Assembly: GCF_030929495.1 (NCBI RefSeq)
Contig: NZ_JAVFWN010000003.1
Coordinates: 124,001-188,000 of the forward strand
DNA: 64,000 bases
Origin: Nocardioides sp. LHD-245
Lineage (GTDB): Bacteria > Actinomycetota > Actinomycetes > Propionibacteriales > Nocardioidaceae
Direction of reading: 5' to 3'
Shown: in pieces, positions 18,701-62,212 of the stretch
Layout of the letters: every line of letters starts with the position of its first letter
How positions within the stretch are numbered: position 1 is the first letter of the stretch
Program-made: the position numbers and the translations under genes
The notes under the pieces: model-generated
Database searches by the model: none
What the model was told of the DNA's origin: nothing
What the model saw: only the letters and a program-made list of their open reading frames with translations

Positions 18701-18713
18701 GCTGGATGCCTTC

Positions 18714-45735: not shown

Positions 45736-47304
45736 TCAGGGGCGACCGTGTCGCGGCACGGAGCGTGCGTTGAAGAGCGTCCCGCCGACGACCTCGCGGG
45801 CGTAGGGATCGCGGTAGATGTCGGGTAGCACACCGCTGACGAGATGCCCCAGCTCCTGGTGTCGCCGGGTGCGTGCGTCCGGCCGGTAGACCCGCGAGCG
45901 CAGCGCGGACTCCAGCTCGATCGCGAGGGCCGCTTCGTCGATGGTCGTCAGGACACCGTCGTCCATGACGACCTGTCCGTTGATCAGCACGGTGCGCAGG
46001 TCGTGGCGCTGGGCGCGGTCGATCAGGATGTCGAGGAACGGAGTCGTGTCGTAGCGGCCAGCGGGCGCGGTGATGCGGGTGCGGTCGAGGACGAGCAGGT
46101 CGGCGAGCAGCCCGGGTGCGAGGCGCCCGATCCGATCGTCGTGGCGGACGGCGCGCGCGCCGTTCTCCCCGGCGGTCCGCAGCAGCCGCTCGCTGTCGGC
46201 GCGGACGTGTTCGAAGTCGCGCGGATCCCGATACAGGTACGACGCCAGGCGCAGCTCGGCGAACATGTCCTCGTCGTCGTTGAAGGAGATGCCGTCGGTG
46301 CCGAAGGCGACCCGGCCGCCGGTCGCCATGATGTCGCGGGTGCGCGCGATGCCCGCTGACAGCCGCAGGTTCGACCCGGGGTTGTTCGACGCCACCGCCC
46401 CGCTGTCGGCGAAGATCCGCAGCTCCTCGTCGGTGACCCACACGAAGTGGGCGCAGACCATGTCGGGGCCGAGCACGCCGAGGCGGTGGAGGCGCTCGAC
46501 GGCCGACATCCCGTAGCGGTCGTGGCTGAAGTGCATCTCGGCCCGGGTCTCCAGGACGTGCGAGGTGATGCCCGTGTCGTACTCGTCGGCCAGCCGGCGG
46601 CAGCGCAGGTAGAGCTCGTCGGAGCAGGCCGGCGTCCAGTCGGGGGCCAGCACGGTGCGGATCCGGCCGTCGTACCCGTCCCAGGCGCGGGCCAGGTGCT
46701 CGTAGGTGCCGAGGACCTCGTCGAGCGGCCAGGCGTAGCCCATGGGGGAGGCCCGCACCTCGGCCGCGAGCTCGGGAGGGAGTCGCTCGAGGAAGCACTC
46801 GTCGGCCTCGTGCGCGTAGATGTGCTGATCGCGTGCCACCAGCCCGAAGGCCACCCGGAAGCCACTGTCGGCGTAGGCCTGTAGCACCGGCTCGGTGCCG
46901 AACCGCGGCAGGGACGGGCGGCCGTAGTACATGTCGACCGCCGCGGTCTGTCCGCCTCGGATCATCGCGGCGATGGAGTGCTGGGCGATGAGGTAGAGGT
47001 CGCGTTCCAGGGCTGGGCCGTAGCCGCCGTGCACGTGCACGTTCGCCTGCTCGAAGACGTACTGGTAGTGCCCGGGGCCCACGGAGAGCTCGGAGTGGAA
47101 GTGCCCGTTGACCAGGCCCGGCATCACGACATGGTCGGGGCCGCCGATGATCCGGTCGAACGGCCCGCGGGCGGCCAGGTCCGCGCGGGGCCCGACGGCC
47201 TCGATGGTGGTGCCCGTGACGATGACCGCCCCGTCCTCGATGGTCGCGGTCCGGTCGAGCGACACGACCGGATCGCCCAGGACGAGAGTGCGAAGAGCAG
47301 GCAT
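45736..47304 (-). CDS. Amidohydrolase of the cytosine deaminase/TrzN/SsnA type
   Basis: The product is about 522 aa. The metal-dependent amidohydrolase core has NGHFHSE (His68, His70), SHVLE, CAHFVW and the GTDG Asp motif, with the composite beta domain at both ends (LADLLVLDRTRI). Enzymes of this type deaminate or hydrolyse N-heterocycles (pyrimidines, triazines, guanidines). It is divergent from a TenA gene and shares a compact two-promoter region with it. In Bacillus, an amidohydrolase (YlmB) and TenA process formylaminopyrimidine from degraded thiamine; this one may do a comparable step (inference). The ATG at 47304 appears leaderless. Confidence 0.86.
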   Translation of the reverse strand: MPALRTLVLGDPVVSLDRTATIEDGAVIVTGTTIEAVGPRADLAARGPFDRIIGGPDHVVMPGLVNGHFHSELSVGPGHYQYVFEQANVHVHGGYGPALERDLYLIAQHSIAAMIRGGQTAAVDMYYGRPSLPRFGTEPVLQAYADSGFRVAFGLVARDQHIYAHEADECFLERLPPELAAEVRASPMGYAWPLDEVLGTYEHLARAWDGYDGRIRTVLAPDWTPACSDELYLRCRRLADEYDTGITSHVLETRAEMHFSHDRYGMSAVERLHRLGVLGPDMVCAHFVWVTDEELRIFADSGAVASNNPGSNLRLSAGIARTRDIMATGGRVAFGTDGISFNDDEDMFAELRLASYLYRDPRDFEHVRADSERLLRTAGENGARAVRHDDRIGRLAPGLLADLLVLDRTRITAPAGRYDTTPFLDILIDRAQRHDLRTVLINGQVVMDDGVLTTIDEAALAIELESALRSRVYRPDARTRRHQELGHLVSGVLPDIYRDPYAREVVGGTLFNARSVPRHGRP

Positions 47305-47311
47305 ATCGCAT

Positions 47312-47340
47312 ATCTGATGCGATTTCGGCGAGCACGTCAA
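47312..47340 (-). promoter_or_regulatory. Amidohydrolase promoter with overlapping TCAGAT motif
   Basis: On the minus strand TTGACG (47340-47335), a 17-base spacer and TCAGAT (47317-47312) are followed 7 bases later by the ATG at 47304, which implies a leaderless message. The -10 box is itself the TCAGATAT motif that recurs at other promoters of this cluster. Confidence 0.6.
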
Positions 47341-47357
47341 CCCTCGTGGCGAGGCCG

Positions 47358-47403
47358 TTGACCTGATGTGGCGCCGCGGCTACTGTCATCTTATATCTGA
47401 TAT
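47358..47403 (+). promoter_or_regulatory. TenA-1 promoter and operator candidate
   Basis: TTGACC (47358-47363), a 17-base spacer and TACTGT (47381-47386) form a good sigma-A promoter. ATATCTGATAT (47393-47403), the TCAGAT motif on the other strand, lies at the expected start point. Confidence 0.65.
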
Positions 47404-47418
47404 GCGAAAGGTGATGAG

Positions 47419-48117
47419 ATGACCGCACAGGCGCTCGACGCCGGTTTCAGTGAGTCCGCCCGACGCGCGGTGGTGCAGGTGTGGGACGCGCTGCCGGAGC
47501 ACCCGTTCGTGCGGGGGATGGCGGACGGCTCGCTCCCGCCGCGGGTCTATCGGCACTACGTCACCCAGAACCTCCTGTATCTGCCGCACTACGCGCGCGC
47601 GATCGCGATGGCTGTCGCGAAGGCGCGCGACGACGACGAGCTCCGCCGCTACGCCGACGCCCTCGCCAATATCGTCGACGTCGAGATCCCGCAGAACCGA
47701 CGGCTGTTGGACCGGGTCCGCGAGCTGTGCGACGACCAGGAGGAGACGCAGGTCGTGATGGCGGCCGGGACCCGCAACTACACCTCGTATCTGCTCGGCG
47801 TCGCGGGGCGCTGCGACGTCGTGGCGATCGGCGCGGCGATCCTGCCGTGCGCGTGGAGCTACGGCGAGATCGCGCGGCGGCACGCCGCCCGGGTGGTTGA
47901 GCACCCGGTCTATGCCGAGTGGTTCCGCTTCTTCGCCACGGCGGAGTACGCCGCGCTGGTGGCCGGGATGCGGGAGCGCTTGGATGCCGACGTGGCGCCG
48001 CTGCCGCCGGCCGAGGTGGACCGGCTGACCCGCATCTTCGCCGATGCGACCCGGCTCGAGAGCGAGTTCTGGGACATGGCGATGGACGCGGCGCGCCTTC
48101 CCGTGATTTCGGGCTAG
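47419..48117 (+). CDS. TenA-family (thiaminase II-like) protein 1
   Basis: The 232-aa all-helical TenA fold shows HPFVRGMADGSLPPRVYRHYV and FWDMA. The catalytic Cys144 (LPCAWSYGE) and Glu214 (TRLESEFWD) of TenA are present, so hydrolase activity on an aminopyrimidine-type substrate is plausible. The Asp that binds the pyrimidine amino group in Bacillus TenA (QDxxY motif) is Asn51 here (TQNLLYL), unlike both other paralogues in the window, pointing to a changed substrate. AAAGGTGA precedes the ATG. It is divergent from the amidohydrolase and is followed by the importer operon. Confidence 0.88.
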   Translation: MTAQALDAGFSESARRAVVQVWDALPEHPFVRGMADGSLPPRVYRHYVTQNLLYLPHYARAIAMAVAKARDDDELRRYADALANIVDVEIPQNRRLLDRVRELCDDQEETQVVMAAGTRNYTSYLLGVAGRCDVVAIGAAILPCAWSYGEIARRHAARVVEHPVYAEWFRFFATAEYAALVAGMRERLDADVAPLPPAEVDRLTRIFADATRLESEFWDMAMDAARLPVISG

Positions 48118-48160
48118 TCAACCCGCAGGTCCACCTCTATGCTGCTGTGGACATCATATG

Positions 48161-48173
48161 TCAGATCTCACAT
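48161..48173. promoter_or_regulatory. TCAGATCTCACAT motif upstream of the importer operon
   Basis: This 13-mer is identical to 52534-52546 upstream of the second amidohydrolase and shares its core TCAGAT with the two sites at 47312-47403. It lies 17 bases before the chosen ATPase start and is a candidate site for the GntR regulator of the cluster. Confidence 0.55.
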
Positions 48174-48190
48174 CCGAACCTTGGAGTGAC

Positions 48191-48991
48191 ATGCGCTCAC
48201 AAACCGGGAGCCAGCTCCCCTCCGCACAGAGCCGCTCGGGCGACGGCGTCGATCTCATCAATGTCGTGAAACGGTTCGGGGAGACCGTTGCCGTCTCCGG
48301 AGCCGACCTCTCCCTGCCTCGCCACGGTCGCATGTCGATCATCGGCCCCAGTGGATGCGGGAAGTCGACGATCCTGTCGATGATCTCGGGTCTGCTCGAC
48401 CCGACCGAGGGAGTCGTCCGGGTCGAGGGTGCGACGACGATGAAGGAGCGGCTCGCGCGGTGCGCGTGGATGCCGCAGCGCGACCTCCTCCTGCCCTGGC
48501 GCGATGTCGCGGGCAATGCCGCCCTGGCGCTGGAGAACCACGGGATCTCCAAGAAGGAGTCCCGCGAGCGGGTGCTCGAGCTGATCGACCGGTTCGGCCT
48601 GTCCGGCTTCGAACGGAAGTTCCCGCACCAGCTCTCGGGCGGCATGCGGCAGCGGGTTTCCTTCCTGCGGACCATGGCGGCGGGCAAGGACGTGCTCCTG
48701 TTCGACGAGCCGTTCGGTGCACTCGACTCCATCACCCGTGCGGACCTCCAGCAATGGCTGCGCCGCACCCTCGAGGAGGCGCCGCGTACGACGGTGCTGG
48801 TGACGCACGACGTCGAGGAGGCACTGCTGCTGGGCGACACCGTCGTCGTGATGAGCGCGCGGCCGGGCCGCATCGTGCAGACCGTCGACGTGGAGCTCCC
48901 GCAGACGGAGAACCGACGCGAGCTGATCCGCCACCCGGCCTTCGCCGAGCTGCGCGACGAGCTCCTGTCCCTGCTGGAGGTGGCCGAATGA
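48191..48991 (+). CDS. ABC importer ATPase (ThiZ-like)
   Basis: The product is about 266 aa. Walker A GPSGCGKST, Q-loop WMPQRD, signature LSGGMRQR, Walker B VLLFDEPFGALDS and switch His VTHDVEEA are present. The ATG at 48191 has GGAG 5 bases upstream; the alternative ATG at 48158 overlaps the candidate operator and lacks a ribosome site. The permease ATG overlaps its stop. It is the energy subunit of the four-gene operon ATPase-permease-binding protein-TenA 2. Confidence 0.9.
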   Translation: MRSQTGSQLPSAQSRSGDGVDLINVVKRFGETVAVSGADLSLPRHGRMSIIGPSGCGKSTILSMISGLLDPTEGVVRVEGATTMKERLARCAWMPQRDLLLPWRDVAGNAALALENHGISKKESRERVLELIDRFGLSGFERKFPHQLSGGMRQRVSFLRTMAAGKDVLLFDEPFGALDSITRADLQQWLRRTLEEAPRTTVLVTHDVEEALLLGDTVVVMSARPGRIVQTVDVELPQTENRRELIRHPAFAELRDELLSLLEVAE

Positions 48992-49836
48992 CGCTCGCCG
49001 AGACCGTCCGGTCGTCCCGGACCAAGGCGCCGACGCCCGGCGATCGGCAGGCCAGACGTCAGCGGCGGCTGGCCGCGGTCGTGAAGCGGATCCTCCCGCC
49101 GACCGGGATCCTCCTGGTCGTGGGGGTCCTCTGGCAGGTGGCCAGCGACTCCTTCGGCGTCCCGAAGTACATCCTGCCCTCGCTGAGCGACATCTGGACC
49201 TCGGCCAGCGAGCGCTGGTCCGACACCTTCTCCAGCGCGACGTGGGTGACCCTGCAGGAGGTGCTGATCGGCTTCGCCTTCGCGATCGCCGTGGGTGTCG
49301 TCATCGCGCTGGCGCTGCACCTGTCCGCTACGTTGCGGACCGCCTTCATGCCGCTGCTCATCGGCTCGCAGGCCGTGCCGATCGTCGTCATCGCGCCGGT
49401 CCTGGCCATCATCTTCGGCTACACCTTGATGCCGAAGGTGATCGTGGTGGCGTTGATCTGCTTCTTCTCGATCGTGGTCAACACCATGCACGGCCTCTCG
49501 TCCGTCGACCCCGAGCTCATCAAGGTGATGCGCACCCTCGACGCGAGCCGGTGGGCGATCCTGCGGCGGGTCGAGATCCCCGCGGCGCTCCCGTCGTTCT
49601 TCACCGGACTGCGGATCTCGGCGACCTATGCCTCCGTGGGCGCGGTCTTCGGTGAGTTCGCCGGGTCCTTGGACGGGCTGGGCTACGTGATGATCCAGGC
49701 GACGTCGCAACTGCAGACGGACATGGTGTTCGTGGCGATCTTCATCCTCACGTTCATGTCCATCTCACTCTTCTTGGCCGTATCGATCGTCGAACGGCTC
49801 GTGTGCCCTTGGGCAAGAAAGGAAGATCGCCGATGA
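48988..49836 (+). CDS. ABC importer permease (ThiX-like)
   Basis: The 282-aa BPD_transp_1 permease has about six TM segments (PPTGILLVVGVLWQVA; VLIGFAFAIAVGVVIALAL; AVPIVVIAPVLAIIFGY) and the EAA loop region LDASRWAILRRVEIPAALPSFFTGL. ATGA overlaps with both neighbours show tight coupling. Belongs to the same family as the permease at 17843-18700 but with independent sequence. Confidence 0.92.
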   Translation: MTLAETVRSSRTKAPTPGDRQARRQRRLAAVVKRILPPTGILLVVGVLWQVASDSFGVPKYILPSLSDIWTSASERWSDTFSSATWVTLQEVLIGFAFAIAVGVVIALALHLSATLRTAFMPLLIGSQAVPIVVIAPVLAIIFGYTLMPKVIVVALICFFSIVVNTMHGLSSVDPELIKVMRTLDASRWAILRRVEIPAALPSFFTGLRISATYASVGAVFGEFAGSLDGLGYVMIQATSQLQTDMVFVAIFILTFMSISLFLAVSIVERLVCPWARKEDRR

Positions 49837-50861
49837 GCAATCTCAGCGTCCGCCGGAGGGCGACTCTTCTCGGGACCAGTCTGCTGCTCGCTGCCGGCAT
49901 CATGACGGCGTGCGGCGACGACGGCGCCGGCTCGGGTGCCGACGGCAAGGTGAGCGTGCTGTTGGAGTGGTTCCCCAATCCCGACCACATCTCGCTCTAC
50001 ACCGCCCAGGACATCGGAGCCTTCGAGGACGAGGACCTGACGGTCAAGTTCCAGCCGCCGTCCAACAACACCGACTCCCTGAAGATGGTCAGCCTGGGGC
50101 AGATGCCGCTGGCGATCTCCTATGCCAACGCGGTGATCAACGCCGAGGCGCAGGGGCTCGACGTCGTGGCCGTAGCGGCCCTGATCCCGACCACCCTCAA
50201 CTCCCTGATCCTCAACCGCACCGACGACGTGCAGGAGATCGCGGACCTCAAGGGCAAGCCGATCGGCTCCTCGGGCGACCCGGTCTCGGAGGCCATGTGG
50301 GCGTACGCGCTCAAGGAGAACGGGTTCACCGACAAGGACATCAAGTTCGTCGCGATCAACCAGGGCTACTCGCCGGCGATGATCTCCGGCCAGGTCAGCG
50401 CGATCATCGGCGCCTACCCCAACATCGAGAGCGTGGAGCTCAAGGAGAACGGACTCGACCCCGTCTCCTACGCGGTGGGCGACGTCGGCGTCCCGAAGTA
50501 CGACGAGCTCGTGCTCATCGCCAATCGGTCCAAGCTGGCCAAGGACGAGGACTACCAGGACGTCGTCAAGCGGTTCCTGGCCGGAGTGGCCGAGGGCGCT
50601 GCTCGTGCGCAGGAGGACCCCGAGGCGGCACTCGAAGCGATCAAGCCGGTGGCCAAGGGCTACAGCGAGGAGAGCCTGCGCGACATGGTCGACCTGACCG
50701 CGCCCCTGCTGGAGAACCCCGACGGCTTCGGGCAGATGGACGTCGCCGAGTGGCAGGCGCTGGCCGACTGGCTGCTCGCGAACGGACAGCTGGACAAGGA
50801 GGTCGACGCGGCCGATGTCGTGAACACCGACTTCCTGCCGGCCGGCGGTGCCGCGCAATGA
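49833..50861 (+). CDS. ThiY/NMT1-type substrate-binding lipoprotein
   Basis: The 342-aa lipoprotein has lipobox MTAC (Cys about residue 27). Directly after maturation it reads VLLEWFPNPDHISLYTA, the WFPNxxHxxxY signature of ThiY/THI5-like proteins that bind formylaminopyrimidine or HMP phosphate. Ligand-fold segments LKGKPIGSSGDPVSE and GYSPAMISGQV follow. ATG 49833 has AAGGAAG upstream and overlaps the permease stop. Together with the TenA gene that overlaps its 3' end, this indicates uptake of a thiamine-derived or similar pyrimidine. Confidence 0.88.
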   Translation: MSNLSVRRRATLLGTSLLLAAGIMTACGDDGAGSGADGKVSVLLEWFPNPDHISLYTAQDIGAFEDEDLTVKFQPPSNNTDSLKMVSLGQMPLAISYANAVINAEAQGLDVVAVAALIPTTLNSLILNRTDDVQEIADLKGKPIGSSGDPVSEAMWAYALKENGFTDKDIKFVAINQGYSPAMISGQVSAIIGAYPNIESVELKENGLDPVSYAVGDVGVPKYDELVLIANRSKLAKDEDYQDVVKRFLAGVAEGAARAQEDPEAALEAIKPVAKGYSEESLRDMVDLTAPLLENPDGFGQMDVAEWQALADWLLANGQLDKEVDAADVVNTDFLPAGGAAQ

Positions 50862-51556
50862 CGGTCCAGGTCGCCCAGCGTCGGCGCGAGGGCTGGACGG
50901 GTGAGCTGTGGGAGGCGATCGAGCCCACCCATCTGCGCATCCTCGAGCACCCGTTCATCACCGGCCTCACGACCGGTGAGCTGGCGCCCGAGGCGTTCCT
51001 CCGCTTCCTGGCCCAGGACACCTACTACGTCAACGAGTACGCCCGCTCGCTCGCGGCCCTCAGCGCGACCGCGCCCACGATGGCGCTGACCCGCTCGCTG
51101 CTCGAGCACGCGTCCGGTGCGGTCGCGGCCGAGTCGACCCTGCACGCGGAGCTGGTCTCCCTGCTGGGTGCGCCGGCCGACCTCCTCGCGCGGGTGGAGC
51201 CCAGTCCCACCGCTGCGGCGTACGTCGACTTCGTGACCGCGCGGGTGCACACGGGTTCGTTCTTCGAGGGGCTGGCGGCCGTGCTGCCGTGCATGTGGGT
51301 CTATGCCGAGGTGGGCGTGCACCTCGTGGCGCGGGGGTCCTCGCATCCGGCGTACCAGCGCTGGATCGACAACTACGCGGGCTCCGGCTACCTCGACGAG
51401 GTCGACCGGATCCTCGACGACGTCGACGTCCTGGCGCAGGTGACCGGCGGTCAGGAGCGGGCGCGGGCCGGCGAGATCGCGCTCACGGCGACGCGCTACG
51501 AGTGGATGTTCTGGGACGCGGCCTATGCCGGGGAGCAGTGGCCGGCACTCGTCTGA
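50858..51556 (+). CDS. TenA-family (thiaminase II-like) protein 2
   Basis: The 232-aa TenA protein has HPFITGLTTGELAPEAFLRFL, Asp54 in AQDTYYV, Cys145 in LPCMWVYAEVG and Glu215 in TRYEWMFWDAAY; all canonical catalytic positions are kept. It is the most typical TenA of the three and is translationally coupled to the binding-protein gene, so it probably acts first on the imported pyrimidine. Confidence 0.92.
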   Translation: MTVQVAQRRREGWTGELWEAIEPTHLRILEHPFITGLTTGELAPEAFLRFLAQDTYYVNEYARSLAALSATAPTMALTRSLLEHASGAVAAESTLHAELVSLLGAPADLLARVEPSPTAAAYVDFVTARVHTGSFFEGLAAVLPCMWVYAEVGVHLVARGSSHPAYQRWIDNYAGSGYLDEVDRILDDVDVLAQVTGGQERARAGEIALTATRYEWMFWDAAYAGEQWPALV

Positions 51557-51716
51557 TCCCGCGGCGGAGGCCGGCCGCGCGCCGTCCTCCGCCGCGGTAC
51601 GCGAGCCCGGGGGCGTGGCGCGACAGGTGCTGTGCGGGAGGACGCGCGATATCGGGTGCGCGGTGCCTGGTGCAGTAGTCTCGCTCCACCACATCGACAT
51701 CACTCGAGGGAGTCAC

Positions 51717-52388
51717 ATGGGCGTGGACGACCAGGGTCGACTGGAGCACATGCAGCTGAAGGATCGCGTCTACCACCACCTGCGCGACGGGATCATCGAC
51801 GGCACCTACGACGTCGGCGCGGCGCTGCGCGAGGTCGAGATCGCGTCGCGGCTCGGCGTCAGCAAGACCCCCGTCCGTGAGGCCTTCGTCCGTCTCGAGA
51901 AGGACCGTCTGGTCGAGCTGATCCCCTACCGTGGCGCGGTGGTCGCCGGCTACACCGCCGCCGACCTCGAGGAGATCTCCCAGGTCCGCCAGCTCGTCGA
52001 GGGCGCGTGCGCGCGGTCCGCAGCTCGGCATGCGACCGAGCAGGACGTCGCCGAGATCGAGCGCAACGTCGAGCAGTCCCGCGAAGCCCTGGGCAAGGGC
52101 CGGGTGGACCGGGTCGCGCAGCTCCTCGACGCCTTCGACCAGCTGATGTACCGCCACTCCCGCAACAAGTGGCTCGACGAGCTCGTGGAGAACCTGGAGG
52201 GCCACCAGCGCCGGATCGGGCGGCTGACGGTCGACATCCCCGGCCGGCTCGAGAAGTCGGTCGACCAGCACCAGCGGATCCTCGACGCGATCCGCAACCG
52301 TGACGAGCGTCGGGCCGAGCGCGCGATGCAGTCCCACATCGCCAGCGTCATGGACGACCGGCTGAAGGCGTTCGTCCGGGCCTCCTGA
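51717..52388 (+). CDS. GntR-family regulator (FCD domain)
   Basis: The 223-aa protein has an N-terminal winged helix (YHHLRDGIIDGTYDVGAALREVEIASRLGVSKTPVREAFVRLEKDRLV) and a helical FCD ligand domain. ATG 51717 follows GGGAG. It lies in the middle of the TenA/amidohydrolase cluster, and the shared motif TCAGATCTCACAT near three promoters of the cluster is the best candidate for its binding site. Confidence 0.9.
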   Translation: MGVDDQGRLEHMQLKDRVYHHLRDGIIDGTYDVGAALREVEIASRLGVSKTPVREAFVRLEKDRLVELIPYRGAVVAGYTAADLEEISQVRQLVEGACARSAARHATEQDVAEIERNVEQSREALGKGRVDRVAQLLDAFDQLMYRHSRNKWLDELVENLEGHQRRIGRLTVDIPGRLEKSVDQHQRILDAIRNRDERRAERAMQSHIASVMDDRLKAFVRAS

Positions 52389-52409
52389 CCGCGCCCTCCT
52401 CTCGCCGCC

Positions 52410-52443
52410 TGGCGTACGTCGCCGGGGCCGGCGACGTACGCCA
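52410..52443. terminator. Hairpin after the GntR gene
   Basis: Perfect 16-bp arms (52410-52425 and 52428-52443, TGGCGTACGTCGCCGG and its complement) with a 2-base centre follow the GntR stop by 21 bases. No T-run. Confidence 0.6.
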
Positions 52444-52503
52444 TGGGCGCCACCGCCGCCGCGTCGCGCCGTCCGGCTGACCTCACTGATCTCGTCCGGG
52501 CCA

Positions 52504-52562
52504 TTGTCGCCTCGTCGTCGACGGGCTACGATTTCAGATCTCACATGCAAAACATGATCTGA
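52504..52562 (+). promoter_or_regulatory. Promoter and operator of the second amidohydrolase operon
   Basis: TTGTCG (52504-52509), a 17-base spacer and TACGAT (52527-52532) form a promoter. TCAGATCTCACAT (52534-52546) begins 1 base after the -10 box. A further inverted GATCTGA lies at 52556-52562, giving TCAGATC...GATCTGA across the start site. Confidence 0.65.
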
Positions 52563-52593
52563 CTTCCCGGCCCTGATCCGAAGGACCCGCCCC

Positions 52594-53601
52594 GTGATCA
52601 TCGACGCCCACACCCACATCCTCGGCCTGGCCGCCGATCCCGAGTTCACCGCGAGGTACGGCCGCGAGGGCGCCCTGTGCATCTACCGCGCGCGGGGCGA
52701 GCTGCCCAGCCACCGGATGCCCACCGAGGCGGAGTACGGCGCCTGCGGGCTCGCCCACGACGGGTTCTTGGAGATCGGCCCGGAGGAGATGATCGCCGCG
52801 CATCCGGGATTCGACCGGATCGTCCTGCTGGCGATGTCACCGCAGTTCCTCGACGGCCGGCTGATCGGCACGGTCGACAACCTCGGTGTCACGTCGGTGG
52901 CGGGACCGCCGACGCCGGAGAAGTGCAACGACTACATCGCCGACCTGCAGGCCCAGCACCCGGACGTGTTCATCGGCTTCGGCTCGGTCAACCCCAACCA
53001 TCGGGGGGTGAAGGCCGCTGTCGCCGAGCTCGAGAGGTCCGTGGTCGAGCTCGGCCTCCGGGGCCTCAAGCTGTACCCGATGTACCAGCACTGGTCACCG
53101 GCCGACCCGATCCTGTCCTTCCCGATCTTCGAGAAGGCGGCGGAGCTCGACATCCCGGTGCTGGTGCACCAGGCAGGCTCCACCCGGGTCGATGCGCGGA
53201 TGGAGTTCGCCCGTCCGGCGCTCCTCGACGACGTCGGTCGCCACTTCCCCGACGTGCGCCTCCTCATCGCCCATTGCGGGACACCGTGGGTCGAGGAGGC
53301 CATGTTCATGTGCACGAAGCACCCGAACTTCTTCGCCGAGCTGAGCTACCACGTGTCCACCGTGACCTCCGAGGAGCTGTACCGGTGGCTGCTGCACCTG
53401 GAGCAGATGTTCGTGCCGCTGGAGAAGGTGGTCTTCGGGTCGGACTACCCGGGCTTCACCTACGACCCGGTGCTGCTGCGGGACAAGGTGCTGGGGGTCA
53501 ACGAGGTCGCACGTCGGCTGGACATGCCGGAGATCGCGCAGGTCAAGCTCGACGGCATCGTCGGCGACAACTTCGCCCGGATCATGAGGCTGGTCGACTG
53601 A
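52594..53601 (+). CDS. Amidohydrolase_2 family protein (ACMSD/decarboxylase-like)
   Basis: The 335-aa metal-dependent barrel has IIDAHTHI (HxH), GLKLYPMYQHW, VHQAG (His), IAHCG (His) and FGSDYPG (Asp). This is the Amidohydro-rel family that includes 2-amino-3-carboxymuconate semialdehyde decarboxylase, resorcylate decarboxylase and LigY-type hydrolases; the exact reaction is open. GTG 52594 has AAGGA upstream. First gene of a rightward run through TenA 3, the flavin oxidase, aldehyde dehydrogenase and VOC protein. Confidence 0.87.
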   Translation: MIIDAHTHILGLAADPEFTARYGREGALCIYRARGELPSHRMPTEAEYGACGLAHDGFLEIGPEEMIAAHPGFDRIVLLAMSPQFLDGRLIGTVDNLGVTSVAGPPTPEKCNDYIADLQAQHPDVFIGFGSVNPNHRGVKAAVAELERSVVELGLRGLKLYPMYQHWSPADPILSFPIFEKAAELDIPVLVHQAGSTRVDARMEFARPALLDDVGRHFPDVRLLIAHCGTPWVEEAMFMCTKHPNFFAELSYHVSTVTSEELYRWLLHLEQMFVPLEKVVFGSDYPGFTYDPVLLRDKVLGVNEVARRLDMPEIAQVKLDGIVGDNFARIMRLVD

Positions 53602-53602
53602 G

Positions 53603-54349
53603 ATGGGCGACGGAGGCAGAGTGGCGCGGGCAGCGCGAGGAGAGGGCGAGCCGGAGATGGCCGAGTCGACCGCACGCTGGCTGCGGGCGTCCTGTCCGCA
53701 GGTCTGGGGCTCACTGCACGGGCATCCGTTCCTGCGGGACATGGCCACCGGGACGCTGAGCCTGGAGCGCTTCCGGTTCTACCTCGAGCAGGACACGATG
53801 TACCTGGTCGAGTACGCCAAGTGCATGGCCCTGGGTGCGGCGCGAGCCCGGTCGGTCGACGAGGTGGCCTGGCTCCGGGACTCCATGGACAACATCGTGG
53901 ACAACGAGCTGCCGAAGAACCGGGAGCTGCTGCAACGGGTGATCGACCTCGGGGCGCGGGACCGCGGCGGCTCGAGGGGCATGGCGCCCACGACACTGGC
54001 CTACACCTCGTTCCTCACCTCGACGGCCTACCGCGGCGACGCCCTCGACGTGATGACGGTGATCATGCCGTGTGCGGTGAGCTATCGGGAGATCGCGCTG
54101 GAGCTCGTCGACCAGATCGCTCCCGACTCGCTCTACACCGGTTGGATGGAGTTCTTCGTCGGCGACTTCTACGGCGCCCGGCTGGCCCGGATGCAGGCGA
54201 ACCTCGACGAGCTCGCCGAGCGTGCCGGTCCGGGCCGGCGCGAGCTGTTGCGCGAGGAGTTCGCCACCGCCAGCCGGCTCGAGGTCGCGTTCTGGGACAT
54301 GGCCTACGAGTGCCGCCAGTGGCCGGACCTCGCGGTGGCGCCGGACTGA
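53603..54349 (+). CDS. TenA-family (thiaminase II-like) protein 3
   Basis: The product is 248 aa from ATG 53603 or 230 aa from ATG 53657; the first overlaps closely with the previous stop (TGAGATG), the second removes an 18-residue Gly/Arg-rich tail. Numbered from 53603, catalytic-type residues are Asp64 (LEQDTMYL), Cys157 (MPCAVSYRE) and Glu227 (SRLEVAFWDMAY). It has an acidic stretch NIVDNELPKNRELL similar to TenA 1 (NIVDVEIPQNRRLL), so 1 and 3 are closer to each other than to TenA 2. Confidence 0.9.
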   Translation: MGDGGRVARAARGEGEPEMAESTARWLRASCPQVWGSLHGHPFLRDMATGTLSLERFRFYLEQDTMYLVEYAKCMALGAARARSVDEVAWLRDSMDNIVDNELPKNRELLQRVIDLGARDRGGSRGMAPTTLAYTSFLTSTAYRGDALDVMTVIMPCAVSYREIALELVDQIAPDSLYTGWMEFFVGDFYGARLARMQANLDELAERAGPGRRELLREEFATASRLEVAFWDMAYECRQWPDLAVAPD

Positions 54350-54397
54350 GCCGGGTCCCCGCCCGCACCCACGACATACGACGACAGGAGCGCAGTC

Positions 54398-55627
54398 ATG
54401 CCATGGTCCAACTGGTACGGAAACCAGACGTGCTCGCCGGCCGCGGTGCTGCGGCCCCGTGCCGAGGACGAGGTGGTCGCGGCCGTCGAGCGGGCCGTCC
54501 GGGACGGACAGGTGGTGCGGGCAGCCGGCTCCGGCCACTCCAATGTCGCGCTGGTGCCGACCGACGGTCAGGTCCTCGACCTGCGTGAGCTGACCGGCCT
54601 GGTCGACGTCGACCGGGAGGCGCGGCAGGTGCGGGTGCGCGCGGGCACCCGGATCCACGACCTGGGGCCGTTGCTGTGGGAGCACGGCCTGAGCCTGGCC
54701 AACCAGGGCGACATCGACGGACAGCAGATCGCGGGCGCGATCGCGACCGGCACGCACGGAACGGGTCGGCAGCTCGGGTCGTTGTCGAGCGCGGTCGTTG
54801 GGGCCCGCCTGGTGCGGGCCGACGGCAGCGTCGTATCCATCGACGCGTCGACACCGGAGTGGCTGCGTGCCGCGCGGACGTCGCTGGGCGCTCTCGGCGT
54901 CCTGACCGAGCTGACCCTCCAGGTCGCCGACGCCTACTGCCTGGCTGCCGAGCTCGAGCCCTGCACGTTCGCCGAGCTGGCCGACACCTGGCGCGAGCGC
55001 CTGGCGCGACACCGGCACTTCCTCTGCTACTGGTTCCCGAGCTCGGCGGCAGCGCGGGCCTGGTTCACCTTCGATCCGCCGCTGGGCGACGACACCGTGC
55101 TGATCAAGACGATGGACCAGGTGCCCGCGGACGCGGAAGCGGAAGAGACGCCGCGCCGGATCGACCGCGCGTACCGGGTCTTCGCCGACCCGTGCGAGCC
55201 GACCTTCCACGAGCTCGAGTTCATGGTCCCCCTCGAGCGGGCCGTCGACGCGCTCGGTGAGCTGCGCACGATGCTGCGCTCAGGCCACCCGGAGCACCCG
55301 TTGCCCCTGGAGGTGCGGTTCGTCGCGGCGGACGATGCCTACCTCAGCCCCTTCGCGGCGCGGGCGTCGTGTGCCATCTCCGTGTCCGGGGTGATGGGAG
55401 CGGACAACGCCGCGGTGTTCGCCGACTGCGAGCGGGTGTTCGCGCAGTTCGGCGGCCGACCGCACTGGGGCAAGTGGCATCCGTACGGCGCCGCCGACCT
55501 GTCCCGCCGCTACCCGGCGTGGGAGGACTTCCGCGCCGTCCGGGCCGCCTTCGACCCCGGCGGCACCTTCACCAACCCTTATCTCGAGCACCTGCTCGGG
55601 CCGATCGGATCCGGAGCCGCCCGATGA
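54398..55627 (+). CDS. FAD-linked oxidase (alditol/aldonolactone oxidase type)
   Basis: The 409-aa VAO-fold flavoprotein has an N-terminal FAD_binding_4 domain (AAGSGHSNVALV with the His that carries FAD covalently in alditol oxidases; ATGTHGTG) and the ALO-type C-terminal domain ending HWGKWH and FDPGGTFTNPYL. Such enzymes oxidise a primary alcohol or lactone with O2. It overlaps the aldehyde dehydrogenase gene, so the likely pair of reactions is alcohol to aldehyde to acid. Confidence 0.88.
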   Translation: MPWSNWYGNQTCSPAAVLRPRAEDEVVAAVERAVRDGQVVRAAGSGHSNVALVPTDGQVLDLRELTGLVDVDREARQVRVRAGTRIHDLGPLLWEHGLSLANQGDIDGQQIAGAIATGTHGTGRQLGSLSSAVVGARLVRADGSVVSIDASTPEWLRAARTSLGALGVLTELTLQVADAYCLAAELEPCTFAELADTWRERLARHRHFLCYWFPSSAAARAWFTFDPPLGDDTVLIKTMDQVPADAEAEETPRRIDRAYRVFADPCEPTFHELEFMVPLERAVDALGELRTMLRSGHPEHPLPLEVRFVAADDAYLSPFAARASCAISVSGVMGADNAAVFADCERVFAQFGGRPHWGKWHPYGAADLSRRYPAWEDFRAVRAAFDPGGTFTNPYLEHLLGPIGSGAAR

Positions 55628-57057
55628 CCATCGCACCCGCCCCCTTCGCCAACCTGGTCGACGGAAAGCAGATCGAGGCCGAGTCGGGAGCACGGCTCCC
55701 GGTCGTCGATCCCTCGACGGGGGAGGCCTTCACGACGGCGCCGGACTCGGGACGAGAGGACGTCGACCGTGCGGTCGCCGCGGCGACCCGGGCGGCTCGT
55801 ACCTGGGGCGAGACGACGCCGGGCCACCGGTCGGGTGTGCTGCTCGCGCTGGCCGACGCCATCGCCGCGCAGCGCGACGCGTTCGTCGCCGATGACTCCC
55901 AGAACGCCGGGAAGCCGATCGGCACGGTGGGCGACGAGGTCGACGGCGGTCTCGACAGCCTGCGCTACTTCGCGGGTGCGGCGCGGGTCCTGGAGGGCAG
56001 GAGCGCCGGGGAGTACCTGCCCGGCGCGACCTCGCTGGTGCGCCGGGAGCCGGTCGGCGTGGTCGGCCAGATCGCCCCGTGGAACTACCCGCTGATGATG
56101 GCGCTGTGGAAGATCGGGCCGGCACTGGCGGCCGGGAACACCGTCGTGCTCAAGCCGGCTCCGCTGACCCCGGTGTCGACCCTGCGCCTGGCGGCCGTGG
56201 CGGCCGAGGTGCTCCCGCCCGGTGTGCTGAACGTGGTCGCCGGCGGCAACGATGTCGGTGCCGCGATCGTCGAGCATCCCGACGTCGCGATGGTCGCGCT
56301 GACCGGCTCGGTCGCGACCGGCCGCGCGATCGCCCGGGCGGCGGCGACCACCCTGAAGCGGGTACACCTCGAACTGGGCGGGAAGGCGCCGGTCGTGGTC
56401 TTCGACGACGCCGACGTCGCGGCGGCCGCAGCCGCCATCGTGGGCGGCGGCTTCTGGAACGCCGGACAGGACTGCACCGCCGCGACCCGGGTCCTGGTGA
56501 CGCCGGCCCGCTACGACGAGCTGGTCGCGGAGGTCGTCCGCGGCGCCCGCGGCCTGGTCCTGGGCGACCCGGGCGACCCGGCGACGACCCTCGGTCCGCT
56601 CATCAGCGCGTCCCAGCGTGCGCGGGTCGCGGGTCTGGTCGAGGGGCGTGGGCCCGGGGTGGAGGTCCTGACCGGGGGCGTCGCCCCCGAGCGGCCGGGG
56701 TTCTACTTCGAGCCGACGGTCGTCACGGGAGCGAGCGACGCCGACGACCTGATCCAGCAGGAGATCTTCGGTCCGGTCGTGACGATCCAGCGGGTGGCCG
56801 ACGAGCAGGAGGCGGTGCGCGCGGCGAACGCGACGCCGTACGGCCTGGTCGCGTCGGTCTGGACCCATGACGTCGGCCGGGCGATGCGGATGACGAAGGC
56901 GCTGAGGTTCGGGACCGTCTGGGTCAACGACCACTTCCCGGTCACCCCGGAGATGCCCTTCGGCGGCTGCAAGCAGTCGGGCTACGGCAAGGACCTGTCC
57001 AGCTATGCGCTGGAGGAGTACACCTTCGTCAAGCACGTCCTCCTCCGCCATGGCTGA
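55624..57057 (+). CDS. NAD(P)-dependent aldehyde dehydrogenase
   Basis: The 477-aa ALDH has APWNYPLMMALWKIGPALAAGN, LTGSVATGR, the catalytic Glu in LELGGKAP and Cys in NAGQDCTAAT, most like aminobutyraldehyde/betaine-aldehyde dehydrogenases. It is complete. ATG overlaps the oxidase stop (ATGA). It should oxidise the aldehyde made by the preceding flavin oxidase. Confidence 0.93.
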   Translation: MTIAPAPFANLVDGKQIEAESGARLPVVDPSTGEAFTTAPDSGREDVDRAVAAATRAARTWGETTPGHRSGVLLALADAIAAQRDAFVADDSQNAGKPIGTVGDEVDGGLDSLRYFAGAARVLEGRSAGEYLPGATSLVRREPVGVVGQIAPWNYPLMMALWKIGPALAAGNTVVLKPAPLTPVSTLRLAAVAAEVLPPGVLNVVAGGNDVGAAIVEHPDVAMVALTGSVATGRAIARAAATTLKRVHLELGGKAPVVVFDDADVAAAAAAIVGGGFWNAGQDCTAATRVLVTPARYDELVAEVVRGARGLVLGDPGDPATTLGPLISASQRARVAGLVEGRGPGVEVLTGGVAPERPGFYFEPTVVTGASDADDLIQQEIFGPVVTIQRVADEQEAVRAANATPYGLVASVWTHDVGRAMRMTKALRFGTVWVNDHFPVTPEMPFGGCKQSGYGKDLSSYALEEYTFVKHVLLRHG

Positions 57058-57481
57058 GGCCCCGGCGGTGCCGGTCCTGCGGCGGATCCACCACGTCGCC
57101 TTCGCGGAGGAGGAGGGCGCCGCGCTGGTGGGACGCCTGCAGGAGCTGTTCGGCGTCGAGGTCGACAGCGAGGAGAGGGCGCCCGGCTTCGTCGAGCGGA
57201 TGCTCCCGGTCGGCGACTGCCATCTGCAGGCTCTCGAGGCGACCGGCGACGGTGTCGTGCGCAGCTCGCTCGCACGTCGTGGCCCGGGACTGCACCACAT
57301 CGCCTTCGAGGTCGACGACCTCGCGGCCGTGCTCCGCCATCTCGCTGACAACGGTGTCGAGCTGATCGACCCGTCCCCGCGGCGGGGCGGGGGCGGGCAC
57401 TGGATCGCCTTCACGCACCCGCGCTCCTTCGGCGGGGTCCTGGTCGAGCTCGTGGAGACCTCCCCGCCCGCCCGGACCTGA
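57050..57481 (+). CDS. Glyoxalase/VOC-family protein (epimerase-like)
   Basis: The product is about 143 aa. The paired beta-alpha-beta3 modules of the vicinal-oxygen-chelate fold start RRIHHVAFA (metal His) and GLHHIAFEVDD (second His), and end GVLVELVE (metal Glu), a pattern seen in methylmalonyl-CoA epimerases. ATG 57050 overlaps the aldehyde dehydrogenase gene by 8 bases. A role on an acyl-CoA or alpha-carbonyl product of the same pathway is likely. Confidence 0.83.
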   Translation: MAEAPAVPVLRRIHHVAFAEEEGAALVGRLQELFGVEVDSEERAPGFVERMLPVGDCHLQALEATGDGVVRSSLARRGPGLHHIAFEVDDLAAVLRHLADNGVELIDPSPRRGGGGHWIAFTHPRSFGGVLVELVETSPPART

Positions 57482-57485
57482 CCGC

Positions 57486-59147
57486 TCACCGCCCGGCGCG
57501 GGCCACCTCCTGGTCCCGCAGCACGTTGCGCCGGATCTTGCCGGTCTGGGTCTTCGGCAGGTCCGGCACGAGGTGCACGACCCGTGGGCACTTGTAGGCC
57601 GCGAGCCGGTCGCGGACGAACGCGACCAGCTCCTCCGGTGTCACGGACGCTCCGGCTTCGAGTGACACGTAGGCCATCACCACCTCCCCGCGGTAGTCGT
57701 CCGGGACGCCGACGACCGCCGCCTCGTGCACCGCCGGATGCAGGTAGAGGGTGTCCTCCACCTCCCGGGGCCAGACCTTGTAGCCCGAGGTGTTGATCTG
57801 GTCCTTGAGCCGGTCGACCAGATACACCCAGCCGTCGGCGTCGATGATCGCTCCGTCGCCGGTGTGCAGCCAGCCGCCGGGCAGAGCCGCCGCGGTCTCC
57901 TCCGGCTTGTGCCAGTACCCGGGCACGACCTGCGGGCCCCGGAGCACCAGCTCGCCCTGCTCGCCGGGGGACACCGGATGCCCCGAGGGGTCCACGACCT
58001 GCGCGTCGAGTCCCGGGAGCGGCACTCCGATCGACAGGGTTCCGCTGGCCTCGTCGATCGGAGCCTCCGCACCCAGGGGCACGGCGATGACGCCGGACGA
58101 CGTCTCCGTCATGCCGTAGATGTTGTGGATGTAGACCCCGAAGCGCTCGCGGAACCGACCGATCGTCGCGGGCGGGATGGGTGCTCCGCCGCTGTACACC
58201 GACCTCAGCGAGGCGAAGTGCTCGCGGGACGCGTGCGGGAGCTGGGCGATGGCGTTGAAGGCGGTGATCGAGCCGATCGTGAAGGTGACCCGATGCTCCA
58301 CGAAGGCGTCGATCGCCACCTCGGGGTCGAACCGCCCCGTCATCACGAGCAGAGCGTCGTGGAGCAGCGCGAGTGTCGCATTGATGACCGCTCCGGTGAT
58401 GTGGAACAGCGGGGCCATGGCGAACACGGCGTCCCCGGGGCGGAGCTCGATCCAGCTGGCGTAGGTGCCGGCGACGGCGAGCAGGTTGGCATGGGTGTTC
58501 ATGGCACCCTTCGGAGGGCCCGTGGTGCCGGACGTGTAGGTCAGCAGGGCGATGTCGCTGCCGGTCAGCCGCACCGGCAGGGGCCCGGTGTCGCGGAACT
58601 CCGCGATCAGCTCCTCGACGTCGTACTCCGCGGGCACGAGGCGGTGCGCGGCGTCCGCGAACACGCGGGGGTCGTTGCGGGACTGGAAGGCGAGGGCGCT
58701 GGTGCTGACCATCCACTCGACCGTGCTGCCGACCAGGGTCTCCGCGGCGTCGGGCACCTCGGCGTCGGCACACACGATGCCGACGGCCTCCGCGTCGTCG
58801 ATCAGCCGGCGCAGCTCCTGCCCGCGGTACATCGGGTTCAGCACCAGGCCCACCGCGCCGAGCTTCCAGAGGGCGATGAGACACAGGGCGAACTGCGGGA
58901 TGTTCTGCAGGTGGATCCCGACCCGGTCGCCGCGACGGGTGCCGAGGGAGTGGAAGCCGGCGGCCAGCGCGTCGGTGAGCTCATCGACCTCGCGTGCGGT
59001 CAGCACCGTGTCGAAGTAGGCGAGCGCCGGTGCGTCCGGCCGGCGATCGACCCGGGCGCGCCACGCGTCGACCAGGGAGCGGGCGGGGGTGAGCTCGGCC
59101 CGCTTGACCGCGTCGGTGTAGAGGGCGGTCCACCGCCTGTTCTCCAT
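57486..59147 (-). CDS. Acyl-CoA ligase (AMP-binding enzyme)
   Basis: The 553-aa adenylate-forming enzyme has P-loop LLTYTSGTTGPPKGA, IYGMTETSSG, GWLHTGDGA, the hinge VDRLKDQINTSGYKVWP and catalytic lysine TQTGKIRRN. The stop is 4 bases from the convergent VOC gene stop. It could activate the carboxylic acid made by the aldehyde dehydrogenase; acid type unknown. Confidence 0.91.
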   Translation of the reverse strand: MENRRWTALYTDAVKRAELTPARSLVDAWRARVDRRPDAPALAYFDTVLTAREVDELTDALAAGFHSLGTRRGDRVGIHLQNIPQFALCLIALWKLGAVGLVLNPMYRGQELRRLIDDAEAVGIVCADAEVPDAAETLVGSTVEWMVSTSALAFQSRNDPRVFADAAHRLVPAEYDVEELIAEFRDTGPLPVRLTGSDIALLTYTSGTTGPPKGAMNTHANLLAVAGTYASWIELRPGDAVFAMAPLFHITGAVINATLALLHDALLVMTGRFDPEVAIDAFVEHRVTFTIGSITAFNAIAQLPHASREHFASLRSVYSGGAPIPPATIGRFRERFGVYIHNIYGMTETSSGVIAVPLGAEAPIDEASGTLSIGVPLPGLDAQVVDPSGHPVSPGEQGELVLRGPQVVPGYWHKPEETAAALPGGWLHTGDGAIIDADGWVYLVDRLKDQINTSGYKVWPREVEDTLYLHPAVHEAAVVGVPDDYRGEVVMAYVSLEAGASVTPEELVAFVRDRLAAYKCPRVVHLVPDLPKTQTGKIRRNVLRDQEVARAGR

Positions 59148-59192
59148 CGGGACCTCCTGGTATGGGACCGAGCCGGCGGTCGGTCCTCGCTA

Positions 59193-60919: not shown

Positions 60920-61021
60920 CCCACCCATTCCCTCGCCCACCCCTCTCCCGATCCGTCACCCCGCCCGAACCCGGCGACCCGAACTCACGTGATGTGCGCG
61001 ACGACTCCACGGAGGAGACAC

Positions 61022-62209: not shown

Positions 62210-62212
62210 TCC

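Follow-up and report, generated by a model that had tools for sequence, protein, structure and literature searches.

Why would a single bacterial gene cluster hold three genes of the TenA family? TenA, the ThiXYZ importer and the hydrolase YlmB make up the formylaminopyrimidine (FAMP) salvage system of Bacillus. The cluster in question lies in a 64,000-nucleotide stretch of a 5.93-Mb Nocardioides-like genome (C3:124001-188000; hereafter the window), where positions 45736-59147 hold three TenA genes, thiXYZ-like genes, two amidohydrolases, a GntR regulator, an AldO-type flavin adenine dinucleotide (FAD) oxidase, an aldehyde dehydrogenase (ALDH), a VOC protein and an acyl-coenzyme A (CoA) ligase. 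With a probability of roughly 0.6, these genes belong to a GntR-controlled catabolic regulon for a thiamine-derived aminopyrimidine, built on salvage parts, whose substrate we infer. The basis lies in sequence: gene content, conservation, a common operator-like site, the lack of a thiamine pyrophosphate (TPP) riboswitch at gathering score and a change in the TenA active site. The genes named in an earlier sequence-only reading of the window were found at or near where it had placed them, and profile searches assign them to the families it gave. The features from amh1 to the VOC gene are as follows.

45736-47304, minus strand: amidohydrolase 1 (amh1), Atz/Trz/deaminase type, candidate deaminase of a ring C4-amino group (PF01979, 146.2 bits)
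47305-47418, no strand: divergent promoter region of amh1 and tenA1, with two exact ATATCTGAT sites (47310 and 47393)
47419-48117, plus strand: tenA1, Asn44-type TenA-family protein (TIGR04306, 145.3 bits; cut-off 130)
48161-48170, plus strand: operator-like site TCAGATCTCA ahead of thiZ-thiX-thiY-tenA2, one of four exact copies in the genome
48191-48991, plus strand: thiZ-like ATP-binding cassette (ABC) ATPase (PF00005, 96.2 bits, scored on a longer open reading frame (ORF) starting at 48158)
48988-49836, plus strand: thiX-like ABC permease (PF00528, 106.1 bits)
49833-50861, plus strand: thiY-like binding lipoprotein, NMT1/THI5 family (PF09084, 174 bits)
50858-51556, plus strand: tenA2, TenA that keeps the usual residues Asp44 and Tyr163 (TIGR04306, 131.0 bits)
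51717-52388, plus strand: GntR/FCD regulator, presumed regulator of the regulon (PF00392 and PF07729)
52534-52543, plus strand: operator-like site TCAGATCTCA ahead of amh2-tenA3-oxidase-ALDH-VOC, one of four exact copies in the genome
52594-53601, plus strand: amidohydrolase 2 (amh2), metal enzyme from the ACMSD/LigJ fold group that serves as anchor for the cluster family (PF04909, 119.6 bits)
53657-54349, plus strand: tenA3, cluster-clade TenA with Asp44 and Phe163 (TIGR04306, 140.3 bits)
54398-55627, plus strand: AldO-type FAD alcohol oxidase (ALO family) with a GSGHS motif (TIGR01679, 338 bits; cut-off 292.25)
55624-57057, plus strand: ALDH (PRK13473 model, 656.6 bits; cut-off 615)
57050-57481, plus strand: VOC protein, methylmalonyl-CoA epimerase-like (TIGR03081, 96.7 bits, below the cut-off of 114.95)

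Overlaps of 4-8 bases link thiZ to thiX, thiX to thiY, thiY to tenA2, the oxidase to ALDH and ALDH to VOC, an arrangement that suggests operons. For thiZ, the ATG at 48191 is favoured over the start at 48158 because the operator-like site falls between them.

The three TenA genes are the sole PF03070 matches in the genome. In a class-wide sample, 162 of 394 genomes carry such a match (E 0.001), and three copies occur in ten of the 162, the window's genome included; three TenAs per genome are thus unusual, not unique. All three proteins score above the TIGR04306 thiaminase II cut-off and, as the sequence-only reading had held, they are of different lineages. In a 63-row tree, TenA1 and TenA3 sit in separate branches of one 30-row clade (support 93/90), and TenA2, whose best PDB match is Bacillus subtilis TenA, falls outside it, grouped with its Nocardioides carbamazepini orthologue and the second TenA of locus L085 (100/99). 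These separate positions indicate that the three are not recent duplicates.

Conservation was followed with amh2 as the anchor. A search of the 394 class genomes at E 1e-30 returned 15 matches: the window's gene, six orthologues (62-71% identical) that adjoin amh1-type, GntR-type or TenA genes, and eight partial-length proteins (38-41%). Against a species-genome collection, a seven-row amh2 alignment found 173 relatives, of which the best 80 were kept; 40 of these are at least 58% identical (L075-L114), and the next are at most 33%. Within this best 80, the closest named relative of the window is N. carbamazepini, with 98% identity in amh2 and the whole window set. The 40 loci together with L074 (genome G512) form a set of 41 (607 kb in total; ten loci are shorter than 10 kb), and 40 distant amh2 homologues from many phyla (L115-L154, 610 kb) serve as a control that is not taxon-matched. 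Thirteen same-order oxidase stretches without TenA form a second, smaller control. Loci L069-L073, in which amh1-type proteins are 61-64% identical, stand outside the 41: four are the same records as L079, L081, L084 and L087, and L071 (genome G346) would add a locus without TenA inside 10 kb, its Asn44-TenA being 16.6 kb off.

The sequence-only reading had staked its proposal on a consistent neighbourhood among homologues, and the neighbourhood is consistent: TenA occurs in 27 of the 41 loci and in none of the 40 control loci, a contrast that is biased in favour of association, as the gene panel was drawn from the clusters themselves and the controls are unmatched. An Atz-type deaminase homologue is present in all 27 TenA loci, and TenA stands together with ThiX, ThiY and ThiZ in 13. 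Across the 41 loci the panel of other genes (tblastn, E 1e-15) gave Atz2-type deaminase 31, GntR 19, ThiZ 17, LLMc 17, amh1-type 16, ALDH 14, ThiY 14, ThiX 13, alcohol dehydrogenase (ADH) 12, M20a 12, NicX-like 10, CaiB 10, VOC 9, NtaA-type LLMb 8, mutase 6, M20b 5, RutA-like 5, FAD oxidase 4 and acyl-CoA ligase 3; amh1 and atz2 are homologous, so that one locus may score for either, and the ALDH count pools two ALDH queries. In the control loci, ALDH was found twice and every other panel gene not at all. These counts describe a wide core of amh2, an Atz-type deaminase and TenA, mostly of the Asn44 type as read from the sequences, to which ThiXYZ, an alcohol dehydrogenase and/or ALDH, M20 hydrolases and LLM flavin enzymes are frequent additions.

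In the class sample, TenA is found in six of the seven amh2-bearing genomes, compared with 162 of 394 overall. A plasmid scan with amh2 returned remote relatives only (30-40% identical). The VOC, ligase and FAD oxidase families are common ones, and their genes could in principle be chance neighbours without joint function; the co-occurrence counts and the operator-like site described below contradict this, place the grouping beyond chance and make that explanation scarcely credible. A unit of TenA, oxidase and dehydrogenase, which the sequence-only reading had suggested looking for in other genomes, does recur, but only in four of the 41 loci, all from Nocardioides, and is not part of the wide core.

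A departure from canonical thiaminase II lies in the active site. Cys135, Glu205, Tyr112 and Tyr139 (B. subtilis numbering) are kept in all 41 cluster TenAs, including the three window copies. At the position of B. subtilis Asp44, Asn is found in 25 of the 41 cluster copies (24 of the 27 TenA loci) and in none of 20 background TenAs of the same order, which have Asp in 18 cases and Arg in two; the 20 were hand-picked from one order's list to cover the score range, and two of them lack the catalytic residues altogether while one further has Ala at Cys135. Asn44 is paired with Phe163 in 24 of 25 copies, and 25 of 26 Asn44 rows, the window's included, fall within the single clade with 93/90 support. 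TenA1 has Asn44, and TenA2 and TenA3 have Asp44; TenA1 is therefore classed as belonging to a TenA-family subclade and not as a canonical thiaminase II, the Asp44 residue of the latter being replaced. Five TenA3-type rows lie inside the Asn44 clade, all with Asp44, which is probably a reversion.

Asp43/44 of TenA hydrogen-bonds amino groups of the bound pyrimidine, and D44A significantly lowers the activity of the B. subtilis enzyme (PMC5623701). Asn44 would be a good fit for a ring that carries 4-oxo in place of the 4-amino group, a prediction in line with the presence of a deaminase homologue in every TenA locus. Two further variants were seen among the relatives. In five metagenome bins (L108-L112, two titled Acidimicrobiia), TenA and amh1 are divergent from amh2, and TenA carries Asn44, Phe47 and Leu51, a further subtype. 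A PF03070 protein in L174 (G012:C1:131890-132486) has Ala at the Cys135 position, His at 163 and a very long branch, and is probably not a thiaminase.

Evidence for common regulation extends beyond the window. The genome holds a NicX-like gene (66% identical) at C3:204098 and atz2 (65%) at C3:208587, within a second module that runs, in order, M20b (C3:197559), a B12-binding domain and a mutase, a CoA-transferase, M20a, LLMc, NicX-like, GntR, ALDH2, ADH and atz2. This module extends to C3:209891 and lies 14-26 kb past the window's TetR gene, and its GntR is 57% identical to that of the window (51717-52388). In three Nocardioides loci, L076-L078, one of them from N. caldifontis, most of the second module adjoins amh2-tenA3-oxidase. 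Its first gene is the following.

G000:C3:197559-198767, outside the window: M20b, an M20 ArgE/DapE-like protein with an operator-like site

The 10-mer TCAGATCTCA has four exact copies in the 5.93 Mb, all on the forward strand and all ahead of regulon genes: one each precedes thiZ and amh2, a third stands about 45 bp upstream of M20b and the fourth about 24 bp upstream of ALDH2. Reversing the pattern gives no copy in the genome. With one mismatch allowed, there are 48 sites, 44 of them inexact (7 for the control), which limits the diagnostic value to the exact sequence. The octamer AGATCTCA has 42 copies, spread over 20 of the 41 loci (one copy when reversed), and 25 of the 42 lie outside called ORFs, in DNA that makes up 9.6% of those loci's bases; the octamer also has 12 copies in the 40 control loci, which are of other phyla. 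The 9-mer ATATCTGAT has just two copies within the window, both in the amh1/tenA1 divergent region. A scan for sigma-70 promoters was uninformative, with no sites against 0.7 expected.

Would ordinary salvage account for the same genes, with three broad-specificity TenAs recovering the thiamine pyrimidine from degradation products? All three TenAs pass the thiaminase II model, TenA2 keeps the usual active site outside the cluster clade, and ThiXYZ is present; the binding protein, as had been proposed, is ThiY-like, its best solved relative in a PDB search being the FAMP-binding ThiY 3ix1 (133.6 bits), a likeness from which the ligand is predicted. Against salvage, no TPP riboswitch at the Rfam gathering score was found in the window or in the 27 TenA-bearing loci, unlike the positive control, a thi operon of congener G177. 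In that operon (L047:9168-12000), two tandem TenA-like ORFs overlap or are fused with thi genes under a TPP riboswitch, and it is ordinary salvage. The host also has thiC and should therefore make the hydroxymethylpyrimidine (HMP) itself; a near-threshold TPP element (53.7 bits; gathering score 54.3) lies about 4 kb upstream of thiC on the same strand. In addition, the operator-like site also stands ahead of ALDH2-ADH-atz2 and of M20b, whose module includes genes for ring cleavage, CoA metabolism and a mutase, and no thi kinase or synthase gene was seen among the scanned cluster proteins. Salvage on its own thus appears improbable. A second ABC transporter of the ThiXYZ kind is encoded at 17843-20638 of the window (minus strand), with a permease 30% identical to thiX, an ATPase 40% identical to thiZ and a putative binding protein.

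The gene set indeed extends past salvage, as the sequence-only reading had proposed, to deaminase, oxidation, ring-cleavage and CoA genes. Its suggestion of a YlmB-like amidohydrolase did not survive: YlmB is an M20-family enzyme, and neither amidohydrolase fits by family. The best PDB match of amh1, an Atz/Trz/deaminase-type protein, is 4f0r, a methylthioadenosine/S-adenosylhomocysteine deaminase, and an HxH, H, H, D, E motif can be read by eye in its translation. As for amh2, an Amidohydro_2 protein of the ACMSD/LigJ fold group, H6, H8, H192, H227 and D284 are invariant in a 27-row alignment, and the structure model made with 27 sequences has a pLDDT of 90. The VIA fold list is led by BB4693, another uncharacterised amidohydrolase and dihydroxybenzoate decarboxylases, and Foldseek ranks LigJ hydratase, BB4693 and LigY hydrolase highest, with ACMSD among the fold neighbours. 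Given these mixed neighbours (hydratase, hydrolase, decarboxylase) and the low rank of isoorotate decarboxylase in both lists, the view of amh2 as a proven decarboxylase was dropped; it is a predicted decarboxylase, hydratase or hydrolase of the Amidohydro_2 family.

A NicX-like or RutA-like candidate for ring opening is present in 15 of the 41 loci. The RutA-like protein has RutA as its best PDB match (2.8e-52; next enzyme 3.3e-25). For the NicX-like protein, the one PDB match below E 0.2 is 2,5-dihydroxypyridine dioxygenase (7.1e-7; next 0.26), and there is no NCBIfam match at E 1e-10. The mutase has Tyr and Arg, like methylmalonyl-CoA mutases, where alignments place Ile and Gln in 2-hydroxyisobutyryl-CoA mutase; we take this pair, Tyr89/Arg207, to be the carboxylate-reading residues. 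From chemistry, the thiamine pyrimidine ring would yield a branched C4 acid and an acetyl unit.

Under the catabolic-regulon reading, ThiXYZ would import FAMP or a related base-degraded thiamine product, from which M20b, a candidate deacylase or deformylase, would remove the N-acyl group. The ring 4-amino group would be converted to 4-oxo by an Atz-type deaminase (amh1 or atz2), and on the ring thus deaminated Asn44-TenA would hydrolyse the exocyclic CH2-NH2 (or CH2-thiazolium) to CH2OH, with the Asp44 proteins TenA2 and TenA3 presumably working on the 4-amino form. ADH and ALDH, or the FAD oxidase and ALDH in Nocardioides, would oxidize CH2OH to COOH. The ring would then be opened by the NicX-like dioxygenase here and by the RutA-like flavin monooxygenase in some other genera, and its products may be hydrolysed or decarboxylated by M20a and amh2. 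Acetate would take away the 2-methyl carbon, and C4-C5(-CH2-)-C6 would form the branched C4 acid, which the CoA-transferase and the B12 mutase, with its methylmalonyl-type residue pair, could pass to central metabolism. The step order and the reaction of amh2 are the least certain elements.

The main rival is that the regulon catabolizes another N-heterocycle, such as a pyrimidine or pyridine natural product, an antivitamin or a pollutant, bearing a CH2-N or CH2OH side chain; the salvage proteins would have been recruited for it, and thiamine would not be the substrate. Asn44 marks a changed TenA pocket, NicX-like and Atz-type enzymes are known in pyridine and triazine degradation, and N. carbamazepini, which has the whole window set, is the nearest named relative. 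However, the cluster is spread over many genera with no evident link to carbamazepine, ThiY, TenA and an M20 enzyme are the known salvage set for the thiamine pyrimidine, and the branched C4 and C2 skeleton of HMP matches the mutase, the epimerase-like VOC protein and the M20 hydrolases. We regard this rival as rather unlikely.

The oxidase side of the window is a narrower affair. The FAD oxidase, whose best PDB match is xylitol (alditol) oxidase 2vfr, keeps the ALO domain and the GSGHS flavin-binding histidine motif of AldO, from which a covalent linkage is predicted. The chain of oxidase, dehydrogenase and ligase that the sequence-only reading described is real but confined to four Nocardioides loci. 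In these, tenA3-oxidase-ALDH-VOC is conserved, and in three of them the ligase and TetR genes are nearby. The ligase is present and convergent, as reported earlier, but it and the regulator (57486-59855) lie beyond the end then given for the cluster.

57486-59147, minus strand: acyl-CoA ligase (PRK06187 model, 407.1 bits; cut-off 476)
59193-59855, minus strand: TetR regulator beside the ligase (family scan)

Next to TetR, window positions 60128-63094 encode an MBL protein weakly resembling AHL (acylhomoserine lactone) lactonase (below cut-off), an ABC binding protein of the branched-chain type and an ORF resembling a permease; the first two are kept in N. carbamazepini (L075).

With ADH and ALDH2 already at work in the wider cluster, the oxidase unit may treat a second alcohol; the thiazole side chain, which the sequence-only reading had proposed, is a guess. 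This leads to an addition to the catabolic-regulon reading rather than an alternative: in Nocardioides, TenA3 would cleave thiamine, the oxidase, ALDH and ligase would turn the side chain of hydroxyethylthiazole, or intact thiamine, into the acid and the CoA ester, and downstream sulfur genes would handle the thiazole sulfur. The conserved unit, the retained GSGHS motif and the presence of another enzyme pair for the first alcohol are consistent with this; a thiamine oxidase with covalent FAD is known. Between the modules (G000:C3:189.6-197.4 kb; L181:1600-9400) lie a 3-mercaptopyruvate sulfurtransferase-like rhodanese (149.8 bits; cut-off 250), a Rid-family protein, a xanthine-dehydrogenase-like molybdenum hydroxylase set, an MBL-fold protein read as persulfide dioxygenase-like and a TauE-like membrane protein, neither of the last two with an NCBIfam match at E 1e-20. 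The sulfurtransferase-like and persulfide dioxygenase-like genes count in favour of the addition, and the inter-module sulfur genes might serve the thiazole sulfur. However, the oxidase was not found in the other 37 loci, the exact TCAGATCTCA site was not found before the sulfur genes, the persulfide dioxygenase reading lacks a family match at that threshold, and the oxidase substrate is a prediction. The addition is held tentatively, as possible but doubtful.

The oxidase was also tried as the cluster anchor and rejected, as a panel search found no TenA around its relatives in the 13 same-order stretches, the best of which, from about eleven congeners, are 43-44% identical. Plasmid homologues are at most 42% identical; two have an aminobutyraldehyde-type dehydrogenase or transport genes as neighbours and no annotated TenA. 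One stretch, on the conjugative plasmid pYJN5-2 of Paenarthrobacter sp. YJN-5 (L052:10339-13218), has an AldO-type oxidase paired with a dehydrogenase of the aminobutyraldehyde type and with an amino acid permease, again with no TenA annotated. A scan of viral contigs with the oxidase gave no match. The oxidase-ALDH pair may serve other alcohols too.

A bolder version of the catabolic reading would have a complete pathway for eating vitamin B1, in which Asn44 TenA acts on the 4-oxo pyrimidine, prior deamination is the commitment step, RutA- or NicX-like enzymes open the ring, a B12 mutase follows, and the Nocardioides oxidase, ALDH, ligase and sulfur genes consume the thiazole. Taken whole, this is unlikely.

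Several observations weigh against the catabolic-regulon reading. The substrate is predicted from family resemblance, and relatives of ThiY/NMT1 and TenA may bind other compounds. TenA is missing from the fetched DNA of 14 of the 41 loci, several of which are short contigs. A genome search placed an Asn44-TenA elsewhere in three of those 14 genomes and in a further genome that is not among the 41. In G614 and G346 it shares a contig with amh2, about 16.5 kb away, and follows M20b, ThiXYZ and ALDH2; G600 and G569 have it on a different contig from amh2, adjoining ThiZ/ThiX and ALDH2 in G600 and ALDH2 and ADH in G569. For G583 (L081), which has amh2 and amh1, that search listed no TenA match. 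The closest Nocardioides relatives with the oxidase, L076-L078, have no Asn44-TenA in the fetched DNA, and Asn44 could also bind a neutral 4-aminopyrimidine, so that the 4-oxo prediction is not forced. Among the enzymes, the RutA-like protein (L101) scores 219.9 bits against a RutA equivalog cut-off of 498.3 and is present in five loci only; the NicX-like protein of L069 is a Peptidase_M29 match below cut-off (20.6; cut-off 27); the best overall match of the mutase is 2-hydroxyisobutyryl-CoA mutase (508.6 bits, against 450 for human methylmalonyl-CoA mutase); and the FAD oxidase relatives inspected sit in other contexts. Overall, of the earlier proposal of a catabolic pathway for thiamine moieties, the conserved unit stands, while the core has been amended and a second module lies outside the window.

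Several known systems invite comparison. The cluster shares with FAMP salvage the TenA family, a ThiXYZ-type ABC importer with ThiY closest to the FAMP-binding protein, and an M20-family hydrolase, here with an operator-like site. It differs in having GntR and that site instead of a TPP riboswitch, an Asn44 TenA clade, a host with thiC, and links to deaminase, oxidation, ring-cleavage and CoA genes. As with Rut pyrimidine utilization (RutA/RutF), a RutA-like monooxygenase occurs in five of the 41 loci and a flavin reductase in two; unlike Rut, neither the window nor the second module showed one, and it is below the RutA equivalog cut-off, and the rest of the Rut set was not sought. NicX, the 2,5-dihydroxypyridine dioxygenase of nicotinate degradation, has a counterpart in ten of the 41 loci and in the window's genome, but the likeness is remote (E 7e-7) and the protein is combined here with TenA, ThiXYZ and deaminase homologues. 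The window oxidase shares family and GSGHS motif with alditol oxidase AldO, but among the 41 loci such an oxidase stands beside TenA in Nocardioides only.

A precedent in kind is the lum operon of Nocardioides simplex for riboflavin/lumichrome catabolism, so that vitamin-catabolic clusters are already known for B2; it is, as proposed for the present locus, a Nocardioides vitamin-catabolic cluster with hydrolases and conversion of a ring CH2OH to carboxylate (PMC12746152). The lum operon differs in its P450, TPP-dependent decarboxylase, Rieske and catechol dioxygenase enzymes (PMC12746152). P450, Rieske and catechol dioxygenase genes were not seen in the gene lists of the window and second module, for which no dedicated search was made. 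The main text of the lum paper contains no occurrence of 'TenA' or 'vitamin B1' (PMC12746152). Literature searches of open-access papers found neither this cluster combination or an Asn44 TenA subfamily, nor a gene cluster for bacterial thiamine breakdown.

That soil bacteria break thiamine down has been known for decades from chemical work. The present analysis supplies candidate genes for this breakdown, with a taxonomic range, a specificity residue (Asn44) and an operator candidate. If the catabolic reading is true, these would be candidate genes for soil bacteria that consume vitamin B1 as food. TenA and ThiXYZ in a genome need not then imply thiamine salvage, a point that bears on how vitamin auxotrophy and vitamin exchange in communities are predicted.

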